Assembly (NCBI RefSeq): GCF_016786325.1
Contig: NZ_JADWYU010000194.1
Coordinates: 1 to 35,135 of the forward strand
Source of the DNA: Frankia nepalensis
GTDB taxonomy: Bacteria > Actinomycetota > Actinomycetes > Frankiales > Frankiaceae
Direction: 5' to 3'
DNA length: 35,135 nucleotides
The notes beneath the pieces were generated by a model. The model was not told the origin of the DNA. It was given only the letters and a program-made list of their open reading frames with translations, and made no database searches. Below, in pieces: positions 3,051 through 15,393 of this stretch. A program made the translations under genes and the position numbers. The stretch's first letter is position 1; the number at the start of each line of letters is the position of its first letter.

Positions 3051-3717
3051 GTAGCACCTCTCGAACTTTAGTCGGGCGTCACTGGTCGATGGCCAGGACG
3101 TTTATCTGGAGGTCTGCCGTCACTGACACGGCGCGCAGAAGACCGCCAGCACAGAAGCGGCGGTCCTTAACAGGTGCCTGGTCACCCCAAGGACGCGGGC
3201 GTCCCGTATCGCCGCGGCCGTCAAGTCCCTCCAGCCTCATGAGGGCGCGCGGTTTTCCATGCTCGGCGCACTACTTGTGCCGCCGAGGTCCAGTCACCTG
3301 GACGGCGGTCCTGGCGATGTCTCGACGGATACCAAGCGCGAGACGCCGCCGCTTCGCCCGCCGCACGCCGGCACGGAAACGAAGATCATGGTTTCGAGGC
3401 CGGTATGGGTTCAGGTATTTTCGACTGCCCACGGGGGCCGGCGGAAACTTCCTCCTCGATATCCCGAAGCCAGCTGATCGCGGCGAACGCGTCGTGGACG
3501 ACGGGCTGGATGCTTTCCGGTTGCATTTCGGACTGGCTGCTCATGCGCCGGAAGGTGCTGGACGATGTCAAAAGGCTGATGAATGACCGGACGTCGGGGC
3601 CGGCGGGCGGCTCACCGCGTTCGATGCCTCCGCGCGGCGCTCGCTCGTGGACCCTGCCAGCCCTCGCCGTCGGCTTTGTCGCGCGACGCTTCCTATTGCC
3701 GGTCGCGGGTCGCGGCG
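3051..3717. other. intergenic, no intact gene
   Basis: The leader of the substrate-binding protein gene and a stretch without a convincing gene. A minus-strand frame ending near 3386 has a short protein-like run (QPVVHDAFAAISWLRDIEEE) but no family match or ribosome site. With the remnants immediately to the right, this region looks like decaying DNA. Confidence 0.4.
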
Positions 3718-4676: not shown

Positions 4677-4846
4677 TGAAGAGGGCAAGATCATCCGATG
4701 GCGGCCCTTCGCCTGCACCGGGCGACGGAGCGCTGGAGGTCGACAGGCGTCCACGAGTCGGAACGATGTCCTTACCGAGCGCCCAAGACTCCTCCGGCGG
4801 AGCGCGCCCCGCGGACCGCTGGCCGGTGGGCGGTGGGAGGCCATGA
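4676..4846 (+). CDS. possible leaderless 56-residue ORF coupled to the hydrolase gene
   Basis: An ATG 8 bases past the TACAGT -10 opens a 56-codon frame whose TGA overlaps the ATG of the hydrolase gene (ATGA at 4843-4846). The product is a Pro/Gly/Arg-rich, hydrophilic peptide with no family resemblance. Leaderless mRNAs are common in actinobacteria, and an overlapping stop/start would couple translation to the hydrolase, whose own ribosome site (GGGAGG) is only two bases from its ATG. The frame may therefore act as a translated leader rather than make a useful protein. Alternatively it is chance in GC-rich DNA. Confidence 0.3.
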   Translation: MKRARSSDGGPSPAPGDGALEVDRRPRVGTMSLPSAQDSSGGARPADRWPVGGGRP

Positions 4847-6429
4847 CTGTCTCTGGGAAAGATCGGGCGGACCTGGGGCTCGTCACAACGCCGGTCCGGC
4901 GCGGTCGGACGACCCGCGCACGGCTGTTTCCGGTGATCGGCGTGGTCTGTGTCGCGGCGGCGGGACTGGTGGCATGTTCGGGCAGTGGCGGCAGCGGACA
5001 GTCGTCGTCAACCGCGCCCCCGAGCGGTGCCACGACGACCACACTCGCCCGCCCGGACGGGCCGGCGGCCGACCTGTCAATGGAGATCGCAGGCGGGGAT
5101 GGCGCGTTCATGGGCGAGGCGGAGCCACCAGATCTGCGGCGCCTCGGCTACGTGGAGCACGAGTACCTTGCCACCGGGACCGCGTCGTCGTACCGCGTCG
5201 CCGGTGCGCTCACCCACGACGGCAGGTGGACGTTCACCCCGGACGCGACCGCGCCCTACCGAACCCGGATCGTCGTGCGCCAGCCGGCAAAGGCCTCGGC
5301 GTTCAGCGGCAACGCCGTTGTCGAATGGCTGAACGTCAGCGGCGGGTCGGACGCTGATCCGGAATGGGTCAGTCTCGAGGAAGAGATCGTACGTCGAGGT
5401 GACGTCTGGGTTGGCGTGTCCGCCCAGCTGATCGGCGTCGTGGGTGGCCCAGTGCGGGTGCCGACCAGCGTCGGTGCGGACATAGCAGGCAAGGGCCTCG
5501 CGGCGATCAATCCTGCCCGGTACGGCGCCCTGCAACTTGAGCATCCCGGCGACGGCTTCTCGTTCGACATCTACACGCAGGTAGCCCGCGCGATTCGAGC
5601 GGGCGCGGGCATGGACGGATTGCGACCGCAACGGCTGATCGCGGCTGGGGAGTCACAGTCGGCGTTCGCGCTCGTCACCTACTACAACGGCGTTCAGCCC
5701 CTTACCCGCCAGTTTGACGGCTTCTTCGTGCACAGCCGGGGGGCGGTCGGGCTGCCACTCGTGGAACCAGGCAAGTCCGCCGACATCGCCGCCGCGCTTG
5801 GCGGAACACCGGCGATCTTCCGCACGGACCAGGACGCACCCGTGCTCGACGCCCAGACCGAGTCCGATGTCACGAGTGTCCTCAACTCGTACGCGGCGCG
5901 CCAACCCGACACCGATCGTTTCCGGCTCTGGGAGGTCGCGGGCACCGCCCACGCTGACGCGCACCTGGTCGGCTCGGCCGCCGCGTCGTTCGACTGCGGT
6001 GTACCGGTCAACAACGGTCCGATGCACCTCGTCGCGAAGTCGGCGCTGCGTGCGCTCACGACATGGATCACGGCGGGCAAGCCTCCGGTCATCGCGCCGC
6101 GCCTTACCGTGCAGCCAGCCACGACGCCACAGATCAGCCGCGACGCCGATGGCATCGCCCTCGGTGGCATCCGCACGCCTCTGGTCGACGTGCCAGTCGC
6201 GATCCTGTCCGGCGCGCCCGGTTCGAAGCCCTCGGCGATCTGCCTGCTGGTCGGCTCGACCCAGCCGCTGTCGACCACTCGGCTCGCCCAGCTCTATCCC
6301 TCACCCGCTGCGTACCTGCAGCGCTACACCGCCGCCGCCGACAAGAGCATCAAGGATGGCTACGTGGTCCGCGAGGACCGCCCCGCGCTGCTGGCGTTCG
6401 CCGAGCCGTCGCGCATCACCGCCGGATAG
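4843..6429 (+). CDS. secreted alpha/beta-hydrolase-domain lipoprotein
   Basis: The 528-residue protein has a lipoprotein signal (hydrophobic core about 28-44, lipobox LVAC, Cys45), followed by a Ser/Gly/Thr linker and one large catalytic region. GESQS at 269-273 places the likely nucleophile at Ser271, and AGTAHAD places a likely catalytic His at 370. The pattern matches the 'alpha/beta hydrolase domain-containing' family of actinobacteria and proteobacteria, often found in catabolic loci as esterases or lactonases. It would act outside the membrane, perhaps freeing a substrate by ester cleavage. The gene lies behind operator/promoter copy 2 and overlaps a possible leader ORF. The IS701-family element begins about 290 bases downstream. 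Confidence 0.85.
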   Translation: MTVSGKDRADLGLVTTPVRRGRTTRARLFPVIGVVCVAAAGLVACSGSGGSGQSSSTAPPSGATTTTLARPDGPAADLSMEIAGGDGAFMGEAEPPDLRRLGYVEHEYLATGTASSYRVAGALTHDGRWTFTPDATAPYRTRIVVRQPAKASAFSGNAVVEWLNVSGGSDADPEWVSLEEEIVRRGDVWVGVSAQLIGVVGGPVRVPTSVGADIAGKGLAAINPARYGALQLEHPGDGFSFDIYTQVARAIRAGAGMDGLRPQRLIAAGESQSAFALVTYYNGVQPLTRQFDGFFVHSRGAVGLPLVEPGKSADIAAALGGTPAIFRTDQDAPVLDAQTESDVTSVLNSYAARQPDTDRFRLWEVAGTAHADAHLVGSAAASFDCGVPVNNGPMHLVAKSALRALTTWITAGKPPVIAPRLTVQPATTPQISRDADGIALGGIRTPLVDVPVAILSGAPGSKPSAICLLVGSTQPLSTTRLAQLYPSPAAYLQRYTAAADKSIKDGYVVREDRPALLAFAEPSRITAG

Positions 6430-6718
6430 CTCTCGATGTCGTCAGCGGCCCTGAGAACGCCACATGTTGGTCTACCACGGCCTCGCCGGCGCGGAAGCGG
6501 TGGTCGACGGCCTTTGTCCCGAGCGGACAAGACGTCATGAGTGAGATCCGCGCCTTCGCTGCCTCCGCTCCCGTCTGCCACCCGACGTCACCGACCATGT
6601 GGAGAAGGCGTCAGAGCCGCTGCCCACAACCGCGGGCGACGGCTGACGACGAGGGCAGAACCACCGGTGCGCCGGGCTGTCGAAAGCACAGTGGCTCGCA
6701 TGCCCCACCGGACAGTCC
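6430..6718. other. intergenic, no gene seen
   Basis: The sequence between the hydrolase stop and the IS target duplication. Short frames on both strands show no family resemblance. It would have been continuous with the start of the oxidoreductase locus at 14251 before the IS inserted. Confidence 0.4.
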
Positions 6719-6722
6719 TAGT
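6719..6722 (+). repeat. target-site duplication CTAG, left
   Basis: CTAG lies directly outside the left inverted repeat and is matched by CTAG at 14247-14250. A 4-bp duplication of YTAR type, here CTAG, is the known signature of IS701-family insertion. Confidence 0.85.
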
Positions 6723-6746
6723 ACTCCAGCCCGACTTCTGTGATCG
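6723..6746 (+). repeat. IS701-family left terminal inverted repeat
   Basis: 24 bp beginning TACTCCAGCCCGACTTC. It is a perfect inverted match to 14223-14246 and abuts the CTAG duplication. Confidence 0.93.
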
Positions 6747-6788
6747 TTTGGATCTGGTGGGTCTGGGTTAGGTGGCCGGGTCGGCATC

Positions 6789-7757
6789 GTGCGGCGTGGT
6801 GGGCCCGGACATGAAGGGGCCACCGGTGATCATCGCGGGTTTGTGACGACACGTGAAGATCAGCCGGTGGCCGTGTGCCCCAGCGTAGACCCTGACGGGT
6901 GGCGAGAAGCGTTCGAGGTCTTCACCGGCCGGCTCGACCGTCGGTTCGGCCGGGTCGAGTCGCGGGGGCGGATGCGCCGGTTCCTGTCCGGGCTGATGGC
7001 GGGGCTGCCGCGGGTGAACTGCTGGACGCTGGCCGAGCATGCCGGGGAGTCCTCGCCGGGCGGGATGCAGCACTTTTTGGCTGGTGCGGTGTGGGACGAC
7101 GACGGGCTGCGCGCCGACCTGCGGGACTACGTCGTCGAGACGTTCGGCGACCCGGAGGCGGTGTTCGTGTTCGACGAGACCGGCGACGTGAAGAAGGGAA
7201 CGGCCACCGTCGGGGTCCAGCGCCAGTACACCGGCACGGCGGGGCGGATCGAGAACTCCCAGGTCGCGGTCTATCTGACGTATGCCACCGCGGCCGGGCA
7301 CGCCCTGATCGACAACGCCCTCTACCTGCCGGCCTCGTGGACGTCGGCCCCCGGGCGGCTGTCCGCGGCGGGCGTGCCCGACGGCGTGGCCTTCGCGACC
7401 AAGCCCGCGCTCGCCCGCCGCATGGTCACCGATGCGCTCGACGCCCAGGTCCCGGCCGCCTGGGCCACCGGCGACGAGGTCTACGGCAACGACCCCGCCC
7501 TGCGCGCGGCGCTGGCCCGCCGCCGGCTCGGCTACGTGCTGGCCGTCGCGAAGACCCACCAGATCGACACGAAGGCGGGGAAGAAGAAGGCGATCGACCT
7601 CGCTGTCACCCTGCCCGCCACCGCCTGGAACAGGGTCTCCGCCGGCAACGGCGCCAAAGGCCACAGGCTCTACGACTGGGCGCTCGTCACCACCGGCGAC
7701 CAGGACCTGCCCGGCGAGCACCACCTGCTGATCCGCCGGAACATCAACACCGGTGAG
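6789..7757 (+). pseudogene. IS701-family transposase, 5' part (interrupted)
   Basis: 323 codons of a DDE transposase. FDETGD gives the first catalytic Asp (129) and ATGDEVYG the second (229). The reading frame runs to RRNINTGE, then enters the group II intron and meets a stop at 7764-7766. Joining codon 323 to position 13811 restores TGE-HAFYRTHSPTPVPL, which fits the family's usual TGELAFYR...SPTPVPL register and gives a 460-residue protein with the third acidic residue in the 3' part. The GTG at 6789 is the first possible start, and GTG at 6843 in the same frame is an alternative. Confidence 0.9.
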
Positions 7758-7765
7758 GTCGGGTA

Positions 7766-7791
7766 GCGGCGGCGCATTACTGCGCCGCCGC
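7766..7791 (-). ncRNA. group II intron domain VI-like hairpin
   Basis: An 11-bp perfect stem (GCGGCGGCGCA on the minus strand) is closed by a GTAA tetraloop, between domain V and the 3' intron end. The position fits domain VI. No bulged branch-point A is visible in the stem, which is unusual and may mean hydrolytic splicing or a different pairing. Confidence 0.55.
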
Positions 7792-7798
7792 CCCCTCG

Positions 7799-7833
7799 GA
7801 ACCCGGCGGGCCACTCGTCGCGGCACCGGGCTC
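7799..7833 (-). ncRNA. group II intron domain V
   Basis: The 35-nt minus-strand sequence folds as domain V. A 9-bp lower helix pairs GAGCCCGGU with GCCGGGUUC and contains the AGC triad. A 2-nt CC bulge follows. The 5-bp upper helix pairs GCCGC with GUGGC and is capped by GACGA. It lies 25 bases after the maturase stop, as expected. Confidence 0.85.
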
Positions 7834-7858
7834 GGGCTCCCGCGTGGGCGGGCAGACC

Positions 7859-8887
7859 CTACAGATCCATGTCCGTACCGGCTGTGGCGGCGCCTGGCTG
7901 GTGCCGGTGGCAGTCGGTGTGTACGAGGCGGTGTCGATCGTCGGCGTGACCATCCGCGCCGGGCACCGTGACCGTGGTGTAGACGGTCGCGGTGCGGGCG
8001 TCCCGGAACCACGTTTCCCATTGGCTGGGGGAGTCGGGTGGCTGGTCGTCGTAGAGCAGGTCGTCCCCGCAGAGTGGGCACCGGCCGCGCTGGGCGCGCA
8101 GGGCGCGCCCGGTTGTCGGTGCCAGGGGCGGGTGTTGGCGGCTGTGCCGCCTCCGCCGGTCTGCCCAGTACTGGGCCAGGGCCGGGTCATCCGGGGATGA
8201 CCGGCCCGCCACGGGGATGTGCCGGACGATCGGGGTCCAGGCGTACTTGTGGAGGTAGGCGCCCGTTTTCGGGTCACCGAAGACCCACCGGTCGTTCCTG
8301 GACGGGTTGTGCGGGCCGAAGTAGCGCCCGGCGACCCACCGGCGGTTGTGGTTACGGTGGCTGCGGCGGGCCCAGCTCTGAAGCCGATACCACAGCCATC
8401 TGTCGAGGGCGGCGAACGCCTCCTTCGACACCTTGGTGCGGAAGTAGGCCGCCTGTCCCCGAATGATCGGGTTGAGGTGGCCGACGACCGCGGCCGCCGG
8501 CTGGCCGCGCAGGGCGCGCAGTTCGGCCTTGAGTCGCCGTCGGATCCTGATGAGCGCTTCCTTGCTGGGCTTGATCAGCAGTTTCGGGCCGTCCTTGGTG
8601 GTGTACCTGCGGACGTTGAAGGACAGGAAGTCGAACCCTTCCTCGATGGCCACGACCCTGGTCTTCGCCGGGTTGAAGCGAAGGCCGGTGGGCGCAAGCC
8701 ACTCGGTCAGGCGTTCTCGGACCTGTTCCGCCTCCTCGGCGCTGTGACACAATGCGACCAGGTCGTCCGCGTAGACAATGATCACGGGGGTTCCTGGTCT
8801 GGTTTCTCCTCTCTTGTTGTACCGGGTTCCGGCGGCTTCCTCGATGCCCTGGAGAGCGATGTTCAGGAGTAACGGTGAGATGACCCC
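7859..8887 (-). pseudogene. ltrA: group II intron reverse transcriptase/maturase, C-terminal part with HNH domain
   Basis: 342 codons resume the reverse transcriptase exactly after the break: GVISPLLLNIALQGIEEA and then YADD, the polymerase active site. The thumb and maturase (X) domain follow (FDFLSFNVRRY, IRGQAAYFRTKVSKEAF). The C-terminus has an HNH endonuclease-type zinc motif (CPLCGDD, then LVHTDCHRHQ). Joined to the N-terminal part at 12376-13122 it gives a 591-residue protein of normal length. The RIT insertion separates it from its start, so no full maturase can be made here. Confidence 0.92.
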
Positions 8888-8890
8888 GCC
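8886..8890 (+). repeat. CCGCC direct repeat at left RIT boundary
   Basis: CCGCC occurs at both edges of the inserted RIT element (8886-8890 and 12374-12378) but is expected once in the uninterrupted maturase gene (GGCGG within CAG-GGC-GGG). It marks the recombination crossover or target repeat. Confidence 0.6.
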
Positions 8891-8948
8891 TAATGAACAG
8901 TGCTGGATTATGCGCAGCGCTGGCCTGTCGGGCCTGGTGAGGGCTCGG
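8889..8948 (+). repeat. RIT element left terminal inverted repeat
   Basis: 60 bp, a perfect inverted match to 12289-12348. Inside and just beyond it is a 14-bp inverted pair, TTATGCGCAGCGCT at 8908-8921 and its complement at 8959-8972. These are likely binding sites for the tyrosine recombinases. Confidence 0.92.
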
Positions 8949-9038
8949 CTGAGGCTTGAGCGCTGCGCATAACACGCCGACGATCTTTGGTTGACGGTTC
9001 GGTATGGAGCCGGGTCGGTCTGATCGGAGGTCGGCGTA

Positions 9039-10271
9039 ATGGTTGCTTTATCCGATTTGGTGGAGAGTCTGGACGCGGAGTTGCAGCGTCTGGGCTACAA
9101 GGACTCGACGATGGTCTGGTACCGGGGTTGCTGGCGCCGTCTGCAGCGCTACTTCGCCGACCGTGGCGTCGAGGAGTTCTCCCTCGACGTGGCGATGAGC
9201 TGGGTCGACGAGACGTGCGGGTTCTTCGCGAAGGAGCGTGCGGGCACGCTCAAGGAGAACGACGTCTACCTGTTCCGGGTCGCGTCGATGCTCGACTCCT
9301 ACGCGGTGCACGGGGCGGTGCTGCGCCGCTACGCGAGGTCCGTCGAGAAGTTGACCGCGGACGAGGCCAGGGTGGTTGCCCGGTTCACGGCGTCGCTGAG
9401 GGCCGCGGGGCAGGCGCCCTCGACGGTGCGGGCGTACACGACGCTGGCCGGGGAGTTCCTCGCGTTCGTGGGCACCCGGGGTGGGTTGCCGGGTCTTGAT
9501 GCCCGGGTTCTCGACGCGTTCGTCGCGACGTTGGCGGGATACCAGGTCAAGACCGTCGAGCAGAAGATGTGCGCGGTGCGCTCGTTCCTGCGGTTTGCCT
9601 CCGCCGACGGCCTCGTCGAGCCTGCCGTCCTCGACGTGGTCCCGTCGGTGCGCTCGACCAGGCAGGCCAGGGTCCCGGCGGTGTGGGCTCCTGGCGAGGT
9701 CGCCCGGATCCTGGCCGCGATCGACCGGGGCAACCCGTGCGGGAAACGCGACTACGCGATGATCCTGCTGATCGCGGCGCTTGGGCTGCGCAGCATCGAC
9801 GTCAAACGGCTGCGGTTCGCCGACCTCGACTGGCGGTCCAACCGGCTCACCGTGGTCCAGGCCAAGACCGGCCAGCGCGTCGAACTCCCGCTGCTCAAGG
9901 ACGCCGGCTGGGCGCTGATCGACTACATCCGGCACGGTCGGCCGGCCTGTGACGCCCCGGAGGTGTTCATCCGGCACACCGCCCCGATCGGCCCGTTCTC
10001 CGACCAGGACCACCTCCACCAGATCCTGGTCAAGCACGCCCGGATCGCGCACGTGCCGGTGAGCGAACAGCGCCGGCACGGCATGCACTCGCTGCGTCAC
10101 ACGCTGGCGACCAGGTTGATGGAAGGCGGCACCCCGATCGAGCAGATCGCCGACATTCTCGGACACCAGTCCGTGGCGTCGACGGGCGTGTATCTGAAGT
10201 CCTCGCTGGCGCTGCTGGCGACCTGCGCGCTGGACCCGGACGCGCCGGCCAGCGGGGAGACACTGCGATGA
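9039..10271 (+). CDS. ritA: RIT tyrosine recombinase A
   Basis: A 410-residue site-specific recombinase of the phage integrase family. An N-terminal SAM-like DNA-binding part (about 1-190, ending before ARVPAVWAPGEVARIL) is followed by the catalytic domain. Catalytic residues are Arg251 (GLRSIDVKRL), His350 and Arg353 (HSLRH) and Tyr385 (GHQSVASTGVY). The ATG has a good ribosome site, CGGAGG at 9025-9030. It is the first of three genes, with its stop overlapping the next start (ATGA at 10268-10271), so the trio is translated as an operon. It would act together with B and C on the terminal repeats. Confidence 0.93.
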   Translation: MVALSDLVESLDAELQRLGYKDSTMVWYRGCWRRLQRYFADRGVEEFSLDVAMSWVDETCGFFAKERAGTLKENDVYLFRVASMLDSYAVHGAVLRRYARSVEKLTADEARVVARFTASLRAAGQAPSTVRAYTTLAGEFLAFVGTRGGLPGLDARVLDAFVATLAGYQVKTVEQKMCAVRSFLRFASADGLVEPAVLDVVPSVRSTRQARVPAVWAPGEVARILAAIDRGNPCGKRDYAMILLIAALGLRSIDVKRLRFADLDWRSNRLTVVQAKTGQRVELPLLKDAGWALIDYIRHGRPACDAPEVFIRHTAPIGPFSDQDHLHQILVKHARIAHVPVSEQRRHGMHSLRHTLATRLMEGGTPIEQIADILGHQSVASTGVYLKSSLALLATCALDPDAPASGETLR

Positions 10272-11251
10272 GCACCGAGATCATGCTGACCGACGCGATC
10301 GCGGGGCTGGTCACGCAGAAGCGGGCCGTCGGCTACAAGTACGCCACGGAGGAACGGATCCTGACGCGGTTCGCCGCGTTCGCCCATGCCGAGTTCCCCG
10401 GCCTTGCGGCGCCCAGCCGGGAGTGCGTCGAGGCGTGGATCGCGGCCGGACGACGGCGCGGGGTTACCCCGGCGACGCTTCAGGGCCTGGTCACCCCGGT
10501 CCGGGAACTGTCCCGCTGGCTGGGCCGGCGAGGGGTCGCCGCCTACGTCCTGCCCTACGGCACGCTGCCCCGCCCCACCCGCTACGTCCCGCACATCTAC
10601 ACCGACGCCGAACTCGCCGCGTTCTTCGCGCAGACCGACCGGTGTCGCTACTGCGCCGAGGTCCCGGTGCGCCATCTGGTCATGCCGGTGCTGTTCCGCA
10701 CGATCTACGGCTGCGGCCTGCGGGCCTCGGAGGCCCGGCTGCTGCGTGTCGAGGACGTCGACCTGCGCACCGGTGTGCTCCAGATCCGTGACGCGAAGGG
10801 CGGCAAGGACCGCCAGGCCCCGGTCGCGGCGTCGCTGCGCCGCAGGCTGGCCGCCTTCGACGCCGACCCGGCGATCCGCCGGCTCGGCGGACAGTGGTTC
10901 TTCCCCGGCACCGACGGAAGGCCGCTCGCCCTGATGAACGTCAACAGGAACTTCCGCCGGTTCCTCTGGCAGGCACGCATTCCGCACGGCGGTCGCGGTC
11001 ACGGCCCCCGCGTGCACGACATGCGGCACACGTTCGCGGTCAACAACCTGCGCAGATGGTTCCGCCGCGGCGACGACGTCGGCGCGCTGCTGCCGGTCCT
11101 GCAGACCTACCTGGGCCACGCCTCGATCGGCGACACCGCCTACTACCTGCACCTGACGGCCGAGTCCTACCCCGATATCGCCGCCCAGGTTCAGCGCGTC
11201 CTCGGCGAGGTCGTTCCGCCCGTCACCGACTGGCCGCACGATGGCGACTGA
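10268..11251 (+). CDS. ritB: RIT tyrosine recombinase B
   Basis: A 327-residue integrase-family protein. Catalytic residues are Arg152 (GCGLRASEARLL), His250 and Arg253 (HDMRH) and Tyr293, the second Tyr of the DTAYYLHL block after GHASIG. Two cysteines (CRYC) near residue 125 are a family-like insertion before the active site. It overlaps ritA by 4 bases and ritC by 11, so expression is translationally coupled. Trio members are thought to work as a mixed complex, although the role of each is not settled. Confidence 0.93.
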   Translation: MSTEIMLTDAIAGLVTQKRAVGYKYATEERILTRFAAFAHAEFPGLAAPSRECVEAWIAAGRRRGVTPATLQGLVTPVRELSRWLGRRGVAAYVLPYGTLPRPTRYVPHIYTDAELAAFFAQTDRCRYCAEVPVRHLVMPVLFRTIYGCGLRASEARLLRVEDVDLRTGVLQIRDAKGGKDRQAPVAASLRRRLAAFDADPAIRRLGGQWFFPGTDGRPLALMNVNRNFRRFLWQARIPHGGRGHGPRVHDMRHTFAVNNLRRWFRRGDDVGALLPVLQTYLGHASIGDTAYYLHLTAESYPDIAAQVQRVLGEVVPPVTDWPHDGD

Positions 11252-12245
11252 CTTCGCGACCGCGCTGCGGCGTTTCCTCACCGCGCACCTGGCCGGGATG
11301 CGCGGCAGTTCGGCGAACACCATCGCGTCCTACCGTGACGCCTTCAAGCTATTGATCATCTTCTTCCGGGACGTCCGGTCGATTCCCCCGGAGAAGCTCA
11401 CCCTTGCCCGCATCGACGCCGACGCCGTCGGCACATTCCTGGACTGGCTCGAGGACAGCAGACACAACACCGTCGCGACCCACAACCAGCGTCTCGCCGC
11501 GATCAGCGCGTTCTACCGATGGCTGGCCTCGCAGGACCCCACACTGCTGGCCTGCTGCCAGGACATTCTCGCGATCCGCGCCAAGAAACACCCCCGGCCG
11601 GGGGTGAACCACCTCACCGTCGAGCAGACCCGCGGCCTGCTTGCCGCACCGGACCGGTCCACCCGCCACGGTCGCCGGGACGCGGTGCTGCTCGCCACGC
11701 TCTACGACACCGGGGCCCGTGCGCAGGAACTCGCTGACCTGGTCGTGCGCGATATCCGCCTCGAAGCCCCGCCGATCGCCTCCCTGACCGGCAAAGGACG
11801 CAAAACCCGCCACGTCCCGCTCGTCGGCAACACGGTCGGACTCCTGGACGCCTACCTCGCCGAACACCACCTCACCCGGTCCGGCCACAGCGACCATCCG
11901 CTGTTCTTCAACCAGCGCGACACCAAGCTCAGCCGCGGCGGGATCGCCTGGATCATCCGGAAACACCAGGCGAGCACGGCCGACCCAACGCTCACCACCG
12001 CCAAGATCACGCCGCATACCCTGCGCCACAGCAAGGCCATGCACCTCTACGAGGCCGGCATTCCTCTGCCCTACATCCGCGACATATTAGGACACGTCGA
12101 CCTGTCCACCACTGAAATCTACGCACGGGCCTCGACCGAAGCCAAGCGCAAGGCGCTTGAATCCGCCTACACCGACATCGTCACCGACGACCTCCCCGAG
12201 TGGAACCAAGACCCAGACCTGCTCAACTGGCTCACCTCGCTATGA
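11241..12245 (+). CDS. ritC: RIT tyrosine recombinase C
   Basis: A 334-residue integrase-family protein, the last of the trio. The N-terminal core-binding domain (about 1-110) includes FLTAHLAGMRGSSANTIASY. Catalytic residues are Arg160 (TGARAQELADL), His259 and Arg262 (HTLRHSKAMHL) and Tyr294 (GHVDLSTTEIY). It starts inside the end of ritB (11-base overlap). The stop is about 20 bases before the inner recombinase sites of the right end. Confidence 0.93.
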   Translation: MATDFATALRRFLTAHLAGMRGSSANTIASYRDAFKLLIIFFRDVRSIPPEKLTLARIDADAVGTFLDWLEDSRHNTVATHNQRLAAISAFYRWLASQDPTLLACCQDILAIRAKKHPRPGVNHLTVEQTRGLLAAPDRSTRHGRRDAVLLATLYDTGARAQELADLVVRDIRLEAPPIASLTGKGRKTRHVPLVGNTVGLLDAYLAEHHLTRSGHSDHPLFFNQRDTKLSRGGIAWIIRKHQASTADPTLTTAKITPHTLRHSKAMHLYEAGIPLPYIRDILGHVDLSTTEIYARASTEAKRKALESAYTDIVTDDLPEWNQDPDLLNWLTSL

Positions 12246-12288
12246 GCCCCCGCCGCCGACAGATTATGCGCAGCGCTCACGCCCCTGA

Positions 12289-12348
12289 CCGAGCCCTCAC
12301 CAGGCCCGACAGGCCAGCGCTGCGCATAATCCAGCACTGTTCATTAGG
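12289..12348 (-). repeat. RIT element right terminal inverted repeat
   Basis: 60 bp, a perfect inverted copy of 8889-8948. The paired 14-bp sites lie at 12264-12277 and 12316-12329, matching the left-end layout with a similar spacing. Confidence 0.92.
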
Positions 12349-12352
12349 TGGA

Positions 12353-12372
12353 TTATGCACAGCTGCGCATAA
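12353..12372. repeat. near-palindrome outside the right RIT repeat
   Basis: TTATGCACAGCTGCGCATAA is an imperfect 20-bp palindrome built from the same TTATGC/GCATAA arms as the recombinase sites. It lies between the right inverted repeat and the CCGCC boundary repeat. The left end has no equivalent. It may be the actual crossover site or a leftover of a circular-intermediate junction. Confidence 0.7.
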
Positions 12373-12375
12373 GCC

Positions 12376-13122
12376 GCCCTGTGGTGCGCCTTGCTCGGTC
12401 GGGGTGTACCGGCCCTTGTCGACCATGCCCGCGCGGAGCCATGCCCGGATCTGCTCTCGGGCTGGAAACTCTTTTATCTTGCGTAGGATGTGGTCGTGAT
12501 CGAGCCGGTCGAAGGCTGCTTCCAGGTCCGCGTCGAGGATCCACTTCCGGGTTTTTCTCCCGGAGGCTGTGTTGAAGATTGCCTCGATCGCGTCATGGCA
12601 GCCACGGCCCGGTCTGAAGCCATATTGTCGGCCGTCGAGCCGGGCCTCCCACTCGGGTTCCAGCGCGTTGCGCACCCTTTGTTGCTGGCAGCGGTCGGCG
12701 ATAACGGGAATTCCGAGCGGGCGTTTTCCGCCTTTCTTCGGGATGTACACCCGCCGCACGGGCAGTGCCACGCTTCCCTGGCGGTGTAGCTGTGCTGCCA
12801 GGTCGGCGCGGCCGGCCGAGGTCAGGGCGACCTGGCCGTCGATGCCAGGGGTGCGGCGGCCGGTGTTGCGCTGGCTTACCTGCCGGACGCTGACCAGCGT
12901 GTTGGCTCGGCTGCGCAGCATGAGTTGCTGTAGGTTGCGGACCTGTTTCCAGTCGCCTGCCTGCGTCGCCTTGAAGATCCTCTGCCGTAGTCGCCGTACC
13001 GCCTTCTCCTGGGCGCGCCAGTCGATGGCGTCCCAGTTGAGCGGCCCCTCGGGTCCGTTCACCGCGCCTTCGGACATGCCGAGTGCCGCCATGTCGACGG
13101 CGGTGGCTGTGTCCTGGGGCAT
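12376..13122 (-). pseudogene. ltrA: group II intron reverse transcriptase/maturase, N-terminal part
   Basis: 249 codons of the maturase from ATG to ...EQGAPQGG, where the RIT element interrupts. Visible blocks are the N-terminal RT0 region (WRAQEKAVRRLRQRIF), GRRTPGIDG, VRRVYIPKKGGKRPLGIPVI, YGFRPGRGCHDAI and the first active-site block (ILDADLEAAFDRLDHD). The YADD catalytic block is on the other side of the insertion. After the break the frame runs into RIT end sequence and stops, giving a truncated product without polymerase activity. Confidence 0.92.
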
Positions 13123-13810
13123 GGCGCCTAACTTCTCCCTCGGATTCCGACGGTTCCGGTATCGGTTCGTTCAAAGGGCTACCCGGCTCGCGTCAGCTCC
13201 CTTTCGGGCCCAGGCACCGGGCCTGGTATGCGGCCAGTTATACCGGCGCGGCCGGGTGGAGGTCCAGCCATGTGCGCCCGCTTTCCTGCTGTCTTTCGAC
13301 CGCCGCCGTTCGCTTCTCGAGCCATCCTGTACCCGCCAGGAGTTCGCCCCCCTTGCGGTCGGCTTACCGGGGGCTGGTCAGCTCCTCCGGACCTGACGGG
13401 GTTTCCGTGTTCCGCACGTGTGAGATACGGCCGGTGCCGGGCGTCCTCTCTACCCCGGGGCCATGGTGCCCGCGCGACCGGACGCGTACTGCCCGATCGC
13501 CATCGCCGCGTCCCAGCGGCAGGCCCTGCACGCCATACGTTCGCACCATCACTGGCGTTGTAGTTGACGGGGTTTCCATCAAGGATTCACGGTCTTCGCC
13601 CTTCCGGCCTTCCCCTCTCCTGTGGCCGATGGATGGGTCACCAGTCCTTGGGATTTCCCCCGGGCTTCACACCCGACGCGTGGAGTGCACGCACGGCGCA
13701 TGCCAGGGGCGGGGACGGACTGTTGGGCACTAGCCCGGAGCTAGAACATCAACTACGGTCGATCCTCCTCCTGTACTTGCTCACTCACACAGTGCGACCT
13801 CACGTCGCAC
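13123..13810 (-). ncRNA. group II intron 5' ribozyme region (domains I-IV)
   Basis: This 688-base stretch runs from the intron's GTGCGAC 5' end to the maturase start. It has no gene of its own on either strand, and its length fits domain I to the start of domain IV. The first 19 bases can pair as a short stem (GTGCGAC with GTCGCAC). I have not folded the whole domain. Confidence 0.65.
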
Positions 13811-14224
13811 CACGCGTTCTACCGGACCCACAGCCCGACACCCGTCCCACTCGCGACCTATGTCCGCGTCGCCGGGATTCGTTGGGCGGTCGAGGACGAT
13901 TTCCAGAACGGCAAGGAACTCGCCGCCCTCGACGAGCACCAGGTCCGGACGTGGACGTCCTGGCACCGCTGGACCCTGCTCGCGATGCTCGCCCACGCCT
14001 TCCTCGCCGTCACCACCGCCCACGCCCACGACACCGAACCCGCCGACGGACTCCTCCCACTCACCGTCAACGAGGTCCGCCACCTGCTCGTCCGCCTCGC
14101 CCTCCAGCGGCCGAAACCGTCGGACGCCTTCGTGCTGGCCTGGTCCTGGTGGCGCCGCCGCCACCAGGCACGCGCCCAAGCCAGCCACTACCGACGTCAG
14201 GCCACAGCCCTACAACTCAACTGA
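13811..14224 (+). pseudogene. IS701-family transposase, 3' part
   Basis: 137 codons complete the transposase: HAFYRTHSPTPVPLATYVRV, then RWAVEDDFQ with the third catalytic acidic residue (Glu351 of the joined protein), then the C-terminal helical part (LLAMLAHAFLAVTTAH, RHLLVRLAL). It ends two bases before the start of the right inverted repeat. It has no start of its own and is separated from the 5' part by the intron. Confidence 0.9.
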
Positions 14225-14246
14225 TCACAGAAGTCGGGCTGGAGTA
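14223..14246 (-). repeat. IS701-family right terminal inverted repeat
   Basis: A perfect 24-bp inverted copy of 6723-6746. It overlaps the last two bases of the transposase stop codon. Confidence 0.93.
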
Positions 14247-14250
14247 CTAG
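14247..14250 (+). repeat. target-site duplication CTAG, right
   Basis: CTAG matches the copy at 6719-6722 on the far side of the element. Confidence 0.85.
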
Positions 14251-14319: not shown

Positions 14320-15393
14320 GTGTTACGCATCGCCCAATGGGCCACTGGGGCCGTGGGCCGGGACGCTGTACGTGCCGTTCACCAACACCCCGACCTGGAG
14401 TTGGTCGGAGCACTCGTGTACAGCGATGCCAAAGCCGGCCGCGACGTCGGCGAAATCTGCGGTATCGGCGAGATCGGGGTCGTCACGACGAAAAACCCAG
14501 ATGACATTGTCGCCCTCGATGCCGACTGCGTGCTCTACATGCCCCAGGGCGAACGAAACCTGACGGGCTCGCTCGACGACATCTGCCGGTTGCTCGCTTC
14601 GGGAAAGAACGTGGTCTCCACCGCGGTGACGGCACTCATCTACCCGAAGTATCTCGGTGAAGAGGTGGTCCAGCGGCTGGAGACCGCGTGCGCCGAAGGC
14701 GGGACCTCGTTTCACGCCACCGGCATCGAGCCGGGCTGGGCCGCCGAGGTGCTTCCGCTGACCATGTCAGCTCTTTTCGAAAGGATCGACTCGCTCCTCG
14801 TGCAGGAGCTCCTGGACTATGCGACCTATGACAGCCCGCAGATGCTTTTCGATGTCATGGGTTTCGGGCGACCGCCCGGTGAACTGATAGTCAGCCGGTC
14901 GGGGCAGTTCCACCCGTTTGGCGCCTCGCTCATGCTCCTGGCCGACGCTCTCGGAGTCTCGATCGACGAGTTCGTGTACGACCAGCAGGTGGTCGTCGCC
15001 GAAGAGGCCTTCGACATCAAGGCTGGCCGCATCGAGGTTGGGACTGTATCAGCGAAGCGCTTCTCCTACACGGCGATCATCGACGGTCGACGCGCCCTCA
15101 CGGTAGAGCACATCACGCGCCTCGCCCCAGACCAGGCGCCGGACTGGCCGACCGGACGGGGCTGGAAGGTGACCGTCGGCGGGCGGCCGTCGATGGTCCT
15201 CGAATCGAGGATCGCCGTCCACGGCGAGGACGAGAACGATCAAGGTTGCCTGGGCGCGGCGATGCACGCCGTGCATGCGATCGCGCCAGTGTGTGCAGCG
15301 GCACCGGGGATCCGCACCTTTCTCGATCTTCCGATGATCACCAGCCGGCACGTGTGGCCCGCGCGGAGGCAGCGCGCCCAGAACCGGGCTTGA
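14320..15393 (+). CDS. dihydrodipicolinate-reductase-like NAD(P)-dependent oxidoreductase
   Basis: The 357-residue protein begins with a Rossmann fold (RIAQWATGAVGRDAVRAV, glycine motif G-A-V-G). VVSTAVTALIYP and a C-terminal mixed domain follow, as in the DapB-N / 2,4-diaminopentanoate dehydrogenase-like group. Members reduce or oxidise imines, amines or carbonyls. Many actinobacterial versions in lipid or steroid gene clusters have no known substrate. The GTG start has GGGAGG at 14308-14313 with 6-base spacing. The IS701 element ends only 70 bases upstream, so the native promoter, or a former link with the hydrolase gene on the other side, may have been cut. Expression may now depend on the element's end. 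Confidence 0.8.
   Translation: MLRIAQWATGAVGRDAVRAVHQHPDLELVGALVYSDAKAGRDVGEICGIGEIGVVTTKNPDDIVALDADCVLYMPQGERNLTGSLDDICRLLASGKNVVSTAVTALIYPKYLGEEVVQRLETACAEGGTSFHATGIEPGWAAEVLPLTMSALFERIDSLLVQELLDYATYDSPQMLFDVMGFGRPPGELIVSRSGQFHPFGASLMLLADALGVSIDEFVYDQQVVVAEEAFDIKAGRIEVGTVSAKRFSYTAIIDGRRALTVEHITRLAPDQAPDWPTGRGWKVTVGGRPSMVLESRIAVHGEDENDQGCLGAAMHAVHAIAPVCAAAPGIRTFLDLPMITSRHVWPARRQRAQNRA

Follow-up and report, generated by a model that had tools for sequence, protein, structure and literature searches.

RIT elements have been described as three adjacent, overlapping tyrosine recombinase genes with a size of about 3.5 kb, in which the trio is flanked by an inverted repeat and an overlapping palindrome (PMC3414803, in the part available). 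The same part describes insertions of RITs into radC and into a transposase gene like that of Tn6049 as well as variation of the ends, and it regards mobility as still to be demonstrated; further copies were reported in radC of two species and one in tnpA of IS66 (PMC2864759, likewise available in part). According to the available part of a comparison from 2023, target specificity, empty site and movement of RITs were not tested (PMC10214605). Here, a RIT of Frankia nepalensis was analyzed, which is located on contig NZ_JADWYU010000194.1 (assembly GCF_016786325.1) in a stretch of 35,135 nucleotides that is called the window in the following. It is the innermost of three nested mobile elements and lies in the reverse transcriptase (RT) gene of a group II intron, which itself lies in the transposase gene of an IS701-family insertion sequence (IS). 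The comparison with related loci makes it very probable that this RIT is a site-specific inserter into group II intron RT genes, which presumably acts via a palindromic circle with two cores.

Like the RITs described earlier (Van Houdt 2009/2012, Ricker 2013), the element in the window has three adjacent overlapping tyrosine recombinase genes, inverted ends with a palindrome and a size of about 3.5 kb (Table 1), whereas a group II intron as target was found here and is absent from the papers searched. Within a stretch of 63 nt the two arms differ at a single position, 8888, and the similarity extends to 87–88 nt at 94%. The 20-nt palindrome, which was absent from an earlier note on this DNA, is situated outside the arm at only one end of the RIT. 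Tyrosine recombinases share the catalytic motif R, HxxR, H...Y, and this motif is complete in all three proteins (GLRSID/HSLRH/LGHQSVASTGVY, GLRASE/HDMRH/LGHASIGDTAYY and GARAQE/HTLRH/LGHVDLSTTEIY). In its own genome the RIT is present in one copy, and in addition a 42-bp match was found elsewhere.

Relatives of RitA were found at 38 loci. In 26 of them (L018–L041, L053 and L055) the identity was at least 59% in the best segment; L053 and L055 were included though their RitA matches cover only 75 and 54 residues. The remaining 12 loci had an identity of 31–35%, and tblastn yielded no RT match for them, several being short contigs. Three of the 26 close relatives had no readable tip, i.e., L018, L031, the contig of which stops at most six bases beyond both tips, and L033, which has one base at the left and stops inside ritC. 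In 21 of the 23 readable relatives the same RT codons were cut, between PQG(G/S) and (V/I)SPLLAN or a close variant thereof. Both flanking motifs could be read in seven loci (L020, L025, L029, L035, L036, L037 and L040) and one motif in the other RT-site loci; in L027 two unread bases are present where SPLLAN is expected, and the frame picks up again at ERYADD. The break point was also apparent from tblastn searches with the two halves of the window RT. Of 14 loci with a match to the N-terminal half, 13 had an alignment that ran up to residue 249 or 250 (exception L055), and matches to the C-terminal half began at residue 1 or 2 in eight of ten (exceptions L021 and L053).

The same target was found with other search strategies. 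A plasmid search yielded at least 11 records with 60–80% identity among the best 5000 matches; six were analyzed, and in all six the RIT was present in an RT gene. One of them is L099, a finished plasmid of Rhodococcus pseudokoreensis, for which the public annotation places a fragment with the group II maturase domain on one side of the trio and a fragment with the RT domain on the other. Group II RNA domains adjoin the RT halves in six of ten scanned relatives (L020, L021, L023, L032, L099 and L100). A pattern made from the element only, and thus blind to the target, detected four ends in 35 genomes of the family, one each in four genomes, and all four were located at PQG(G/S), while the reversed control detected none. 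Across 393 genomes of the class, RitA had matches with E ≤ 1e-50 in three genomes, two of which belong to this RIT group (the window's own and G032), and no RIT relative was found in a viral collection. RT-targeting RITs occur in actinobacteria, in proteobacteria and, going by how metagenome bins are labelled, also in Acidobacteria and Chloroflexi.

Several shortened forms were observed as well. G032, a genome of the same genus as the window, contains a mini-RIT of about 420 bp (L090, 1605–2027) with both arms and the palindrome, which is too short for recombinase genes and resembles a derivative of the miniature inverted-repeat transposable element (MITE) type; it sits between PQGG and GVISP of another intron. 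RIT ends at RT codons were present in three genomes without RitA match and are apparent remnants (L092, L093 and L094 in G019, G002 and G003, respectively). The L018 contig, which has a 93% RitA match, carries the same sequence in inverted orientation at positions 1–60 and 3110–3169.

The palindrome has 20 bp, lies between arm and gene at one end only and is close to TTATGCGCAGCTGCGCATAA in most copies. In all 26 rows (24 loci) in which the pattern detected it, CAA or CAG from the PQG codons stands ahead of it, irrespective of the orientation of the RIT. RITs were found in both orientations, and the palindrome was on the QG side at all 26 ends where it was found. For example, L099 and L100 share the RT site and carry the RIT in opposite directions, yet each copy has its palindrome on the QG side. 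The fixed side of the palindrome together with both orientations suggests that the RIT passes through a circular form whose attachment site is symmetric. CTGYTCATAA and TTATGCGCAG flank each core, an arrangement typical of crossover sites of tyrosine recombinases. The 6-mer on the element side of the palindrome (inner core) was translated in 25 rows; 24 of them yielded Gly-Gly, Gly-Ser or Gly-Ala, and in 23 it is unlike the gene-side core (L101, a near-copy of L040, was omitted from the inner-core count). The 6-bp cores resemble footprints of RT targets used earlier. In L029, L035 and L037 the core of the QG side does not code for the same residues as that of the SP side, which is in agreement with a QG-side core borne by the element; the SP side, judged by eye, suits the type of RT. 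In L029, the N-terminal and C-terminal RT halves are 61% and 35% identical to those of the window, respectively, which could represent a natural RT type or mixed halves. The core sequences suggest that the RIT carries a 6-bp record of an earlier target; similarly, a 6-bp footprint that is carried from the donor site has been described for strand-biased circularizing elements (SEs) and Tn554-related elements (PMC10214605, available part).

From these features the following mechanism can be proposed. The three tyrosine recombinases would insert the RIT site-specifically at RT DNA encoding PQG(G/S)-x-(V/I)SPLLAN. The RIT would excise as a circle, the joint of which would be one large palindrome composed of arm, core GGNNNN, TTATGCGCAG/CTGCGCATAA, inverted core and arm, and would offer two equivalent cores for crossover that face opposite ways. 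Whichever core recombined with an RT site, the palindrome would always come to lie 5′ of the insertion, on the QG side, while the RIT itself could point either way. The RIT would carry 6 bp from the earlier target and deposit them on the 5′ side of the new gene. In the window, the RIT broke the RT gene of the intron, and the IS had been broken by this intron, which lies antisense in the transposase gene.

The two orientations could also have arisen if insertion is site-specific, but the body of the RIT is inverted between its own arms after insertion, instead of a choice between the cores of a symmetric circle joint. The arms are indeed inverted repeats, and just this kind of inversion distinguishes L099 from L100. 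However, the likeness of the inner cores to RT codons would be left unexplained, and inversion is compatible with the circle model, so that both can coexist. As the source of the orientations, inversion after insertion is regarded as conceivable, but rather unlikely. The identical position in every copy, in turn, would also be expected if the RIT were the inherited passenger of one intron lineage and spread with the intron. Against this stands the diversity of the hosts: RT C-terminal halves were read in 17 loci, and among the 14 of at least 60 residues the mutual identity was just 27–67%. Kibdelosporangium philippinense contains two RIT copies, one of them incomplete, which are 99.9% identical on the DNA level over 1464 bp (the L021 alignment stops beyond); RitA is identical as extracted, and the two host RTs are 31% identical. 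Both orientations of the RIT and the existence of a RIT-free relative of the host intron also do not fit to a passenger. The low RT identity and the identical RitA in different RTs indicate that the RIT is an element that moves independently of any one intron and evidently reaches the same codons in unrelated RTs. In a RitA tree, the 28 rows of the RT-site group were found behind a single 100/100 branch (L103 was left out, because another recombinase had been picked, and L128 was not extracted). In view of the divergent RTs and the identical RitA, inheritance as a passenger is judged to be very unlikely, and the Kibdelosporangium pair counters it as the sole account.

Nested elements are common, and the intron itself occupies unrelated exons elsewhere, and thus three unrelated elements might have been nested by chance, with a RIT that inserts without sequence preference. 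The earlier note had indeed treated the combination as a curiosity of three independent insertions. This part of it was not upheld, because a RIT in an intron turned out to be typical of this RIT group, with the same RT codons in 21 of the 23 readable relatives, and because one of four other motifs is interrupted by the RIT in 17 of 28 loci with more distant RITs (see below). Chance nesting is largely contradicted by these results and hardly deserves any credence. As judged from the sequences, the innermost nesting is probably no accident, but a case of a DNA element preying on a protein motif of other mobile elements.

Several observations weigh against site-specific insertion into RT genes via a two-core circle or limit its reach. 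L038 (Sphingobium lactosutens) is the sole readable locus outside an RT; its RIT (7854–11288) is located at a CCGCAAGG site between groEL and a ParB-like gene (genes named by eye) and has a different palindrome, AAATGGATAGCTATCCATTT. L055 is a decayed RT copy with a break after the RT residues ERGTP, and it has neither QG nor palindrome, while the RIT of L018 is truncated inside the arm and the L018 contig has no RT match. With respect to the intron, an Rfam search of the window intron with E values up to 10 gave no group II RNA match, and in the scan of ten relatives no such RNA was found beside the RT halves of L029, L036, L041 and L053; in L041 and L053 group II RNA matches are located elsewhere. 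L030 and L034 have RT N-terminal halves and palindromes at both ends, which is unexpected from simple insertion. The inner core of L028 decodes to Gly-Tyr and does not fit to a footprint, the binomial statistic of the inner cores takes related rows as independent, and a preference of the recombinase for such cores could mimic a footprint. The targets have only strongly degenerate DNA in common (by eye CARGG followed by TCNCC or AGYCC), which by itself hardly accounts for how the recombinases find RT genes. Circle, crossover and footprint are inferred from sequence, and no circle or excision was observed.

A few details of these exceptional loci were also recorded. In L034 (100–3600) the N-terminal halves at the RIT ends belong to two different RTs, and in L030 the same flank is present at both ends, perhaps as an assembly artefact. 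L046 (1445–4951) has C-terminal halves of an IS21 transposase at both RIT ends. RITs with N-terminal halves (L030, L034) or C-terminal halves (L046) of the target at both ends look as if two inserted RITs had recombined.

The inspection was extended to 28 loci with more distant RITs. In 17 of these the RIT breaks a single conserved motif of some other gene, namely in 12 of 12 (L116–L118, L120–L128) and in five of a further 12 (L042–L052, L054); the groups are named by the target found, and therefore these numbers are counts and not tests. In IS110 transposases the break is between YV(K/R)xYVK and ..K.D..DAEAI, which was read on both sides for L118, L120 and L123, with a single side read for L121 and L122. 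Helicases of the strawberry-notch type are broken between IYDxYAxA(W/F/Y) and (I)IHxN (L117, L125, L126 and L128), and ArdC is broken at AAY(I/L)x(S/N)WL or DYIGSWL (L116, L124 and L127); for these three target groups some frames were taken by eye from the DNA. The IS21 transposase is broken between VPD and N in L045, L050 (VYD) and L051; only the N-terminal side was read in L044, and L046 has C-terminal parts on both sides. In agreement with these assignments, the N-terminal parts of L045 and L051 stop at position 184 of the IS21 profile NF033546, and the C-terminal parts of L050 and L051 begin at 183. Profiles also agreed for IS110 in L118, L120 and L123, for ArdC in L116 and L124, and for the helicase in L117 (AAA_34 and the strawberry-notch C-terminal domain) and L125 (AAA_34). 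In every locus in which both palindrome and gene were read, the palindrome, as judged by eye, lies towards the N-terminal side; L044 has none, and it was unread in L121 and L122. No target was assigned in 11 of the 28 loci (L042, L043, L047, L048, L049, L052, L054, L113, L114, L115 and L119). An IS66-type gene is annotated near the RIT of L114. L113, L115 and L119 were inspected on the basis of annotation, which for L113 shows a group II maturase-domain gene upstream of the trio.

The RitA tree unites the IS21 loci in one group (100/99), whereas loci with IS110, ArdC and helicase targets are intermingled in one alphaproteobacterial group, indicating that targets switch there. It is likely that RITs overall are motif-hunting parasites mostly of mobile elements, which use a two-core palindromic circle, insert before the G/S that follows PQG in RTs, behind YVKPYVK in IS110, between VPD and N in IstA of IS21, behind IYDxYAxAW in the helicase and behind AAYIxSWL in ArdC, carry a 6-bp record of earlier targets and occasionally switch the motif.

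The two outer layers of the window were characterized as well. The inverted ends of the IS are identical over 24 bp and start at 6722 and 14246, with CTAG at both flanks; a 4-bp target duplication of the CTAG type is a feature of the IS701 family. With 307.9 bits (cut-off 150), the 5′ part of the transposase gene was assigned to the DDE transposases of the IS701 model NF033540, and the two pieces represent consecutive stretches of this profile. The intron cuts the gene right after NTGE. The IS was found once in its own genome, along with weaker relatives; the genes that flank it (4843–6429 and 14320–15393) match Abhydrolase_10 and DAP_DH_C/DapB_N, respectively. Without the RIT the intron has 2565 nt, and it was also found once in the genome. 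Group II introns have the end consensus 5′ GUGYG and 3′ AY. L096 has the 5′ end of the window intron at an unrelated exon, and L088 and L090 have its 3′ end, again at unrelated exons; the related copy L095 has TTGCG instead of GTGCG. The RT halves match PF00078, PF08388 and TIGR04416 and thus represent an RT with a maturase (X) domain.

Table 1. Coordinates of the three nested elements and of their parts in the window.
Feature	Position	Strand	Basis or remark
RIT element, innermost layer, about 3.48 kb	8891..12373	+	break points versus RIT-free intron L088
ritA, tyrosine recombinase	9039..10271	+	PF00589
ritB, tyrosine recombinase, 4 bp overlap with ritA	10268..11251	+	PF00589
ritC, tyrosine recombinase, 11 bp overlap with ritB	11241..12245	+	PF00589
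RIT left inverted arm	8886..8972	+	
RIT right inverted arm	12264..12351	-	
Palindrome TTATGCGCAGCTGTGCATAA, outside right arm, QG side of split RT gene	12353..12372	-	
Core GGCGGC (Gly-Gly codons), QG side	12373..12378	-	
Inner core GGTGGA, between palindrome and arm; possible footprint of earlier target	12347..12352	+	
Core GGCGGG, VISP side	8885..8890	-	
Group II intron, antisense to transposase	7758..13810	-	5′ GTGCG at 13810, 3′ CTACCCGAC at 7758; ends common to copies at other exons
Intron RT/maturase, N-terminal part, ends PQG	12374..13122	-	TIGR04416 3-183
Intron RT/maturase, C-terminal part, begins VISPLLLN	7859..8884	-	TIGR04416 185-353; GIIM domain on 7859-8785
Strong hairpins at intron 3′ end, presumed domains V and VI	7758..7850	-	fold z-score -4.8
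IS701-family element, outermost layer	6722..14246	+	24-bp exact inverted ends, NF033540, uninterrupted relatives
CTAG, left copy, presumed target duplication	6718..6721	no strand	
CTAG, right copy, presumed target duplication	14247..14250	no strand	
IS701 transposase gene, 5′ part, ends NTGE	6789..7757	+	NF033540 2-290 of 363
IS701 transposase gene, 3′ part, begins HAFYR	13811..14224	+	NF033540 296-362 of 363

The earlier note had proposed that an IS701 element with intact 24-bp inverted repeats and a CTAG duplication contains the intron and the intron the RIT, with clean joins, and this nesting was verified to be real; its perfect RIT ends of 60 bp were also found again (8889–8948). It had further stated that removal of 7758–13810 restores the transposase, and these limits proved to be exact. 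The IS flanks were spliced by script, and the resulting uninterrupted sequence of 1481 bp aligned in full length with uninterrupted copies in G028 (84%, 4 gaps), G019 (82%, 9 gaps) and G031 (74%, 42 gaps). The spliced frame reads NTGE-HAFYR, its counterpart in G019 HTGE-YAFYR. For L086 the frame taken into the protein alignment was an antisense one and was disregarded; its DNA alignment is valid. Similarly, the RIT-free intron relative L088 of G032 reads through the RT break as PQGGVISPLLLN, in accordance with the statement that removal of the RIT restores the maturase. The uninterrupted IS and the intron-only form, for which the note had recommended a search, were thus both found, and both joins were confirmed. 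The order of events, which it had regarded as fixed, stood in part. That the IS preceded the intron is forced by the nesting; that the RIT entered last is likely, but not forced, because it could have entered the intron before the intron reached the IS, mobilization in trans being conceivable for an intron whose RT is broken. The proposed recent age cannot be derived from perfect joins, because each insertion mechanism inserts cleanly, but the open frames argue against great age.

Mobile elements within mobile elements are known from twintrons and from RmInt1 in ISRm2011-2, in which group II introns are found inside introns or IS elements, sometimes site-specifically. In these cases the invader is an RNA-based intron, whereas in the window a DNA element invades an RT gene. 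To our knowledge, Tn554, GInts and SEs have targets other than RT genes. They share several tyrosine recombinases and a target specificity with the RIT, but their gene sets are different, and no palindromic dual-core joint is described for them in the available part of PMC10214605. The term group II intron has no occurrence in PMC3414803, PMC10214605, PMC2864759, PMC5385486 and PMC8138268, and a literature search revealed no paper that joins RIT recombinases with group II introns; an earlier description may exist elsewhere, and the novelty of an RT-targeting RIT is regarded as provisional.

The junctions supply a concrete target for several RITs and a circle structure that can be tested. A DNA element specialized on the RT of a retroelement bears on the question of what keeps group II introns in check, and the related recombinase trios with differing coding-motif targets represent a natural series for changes in the specificity of tyrosine recombinases.

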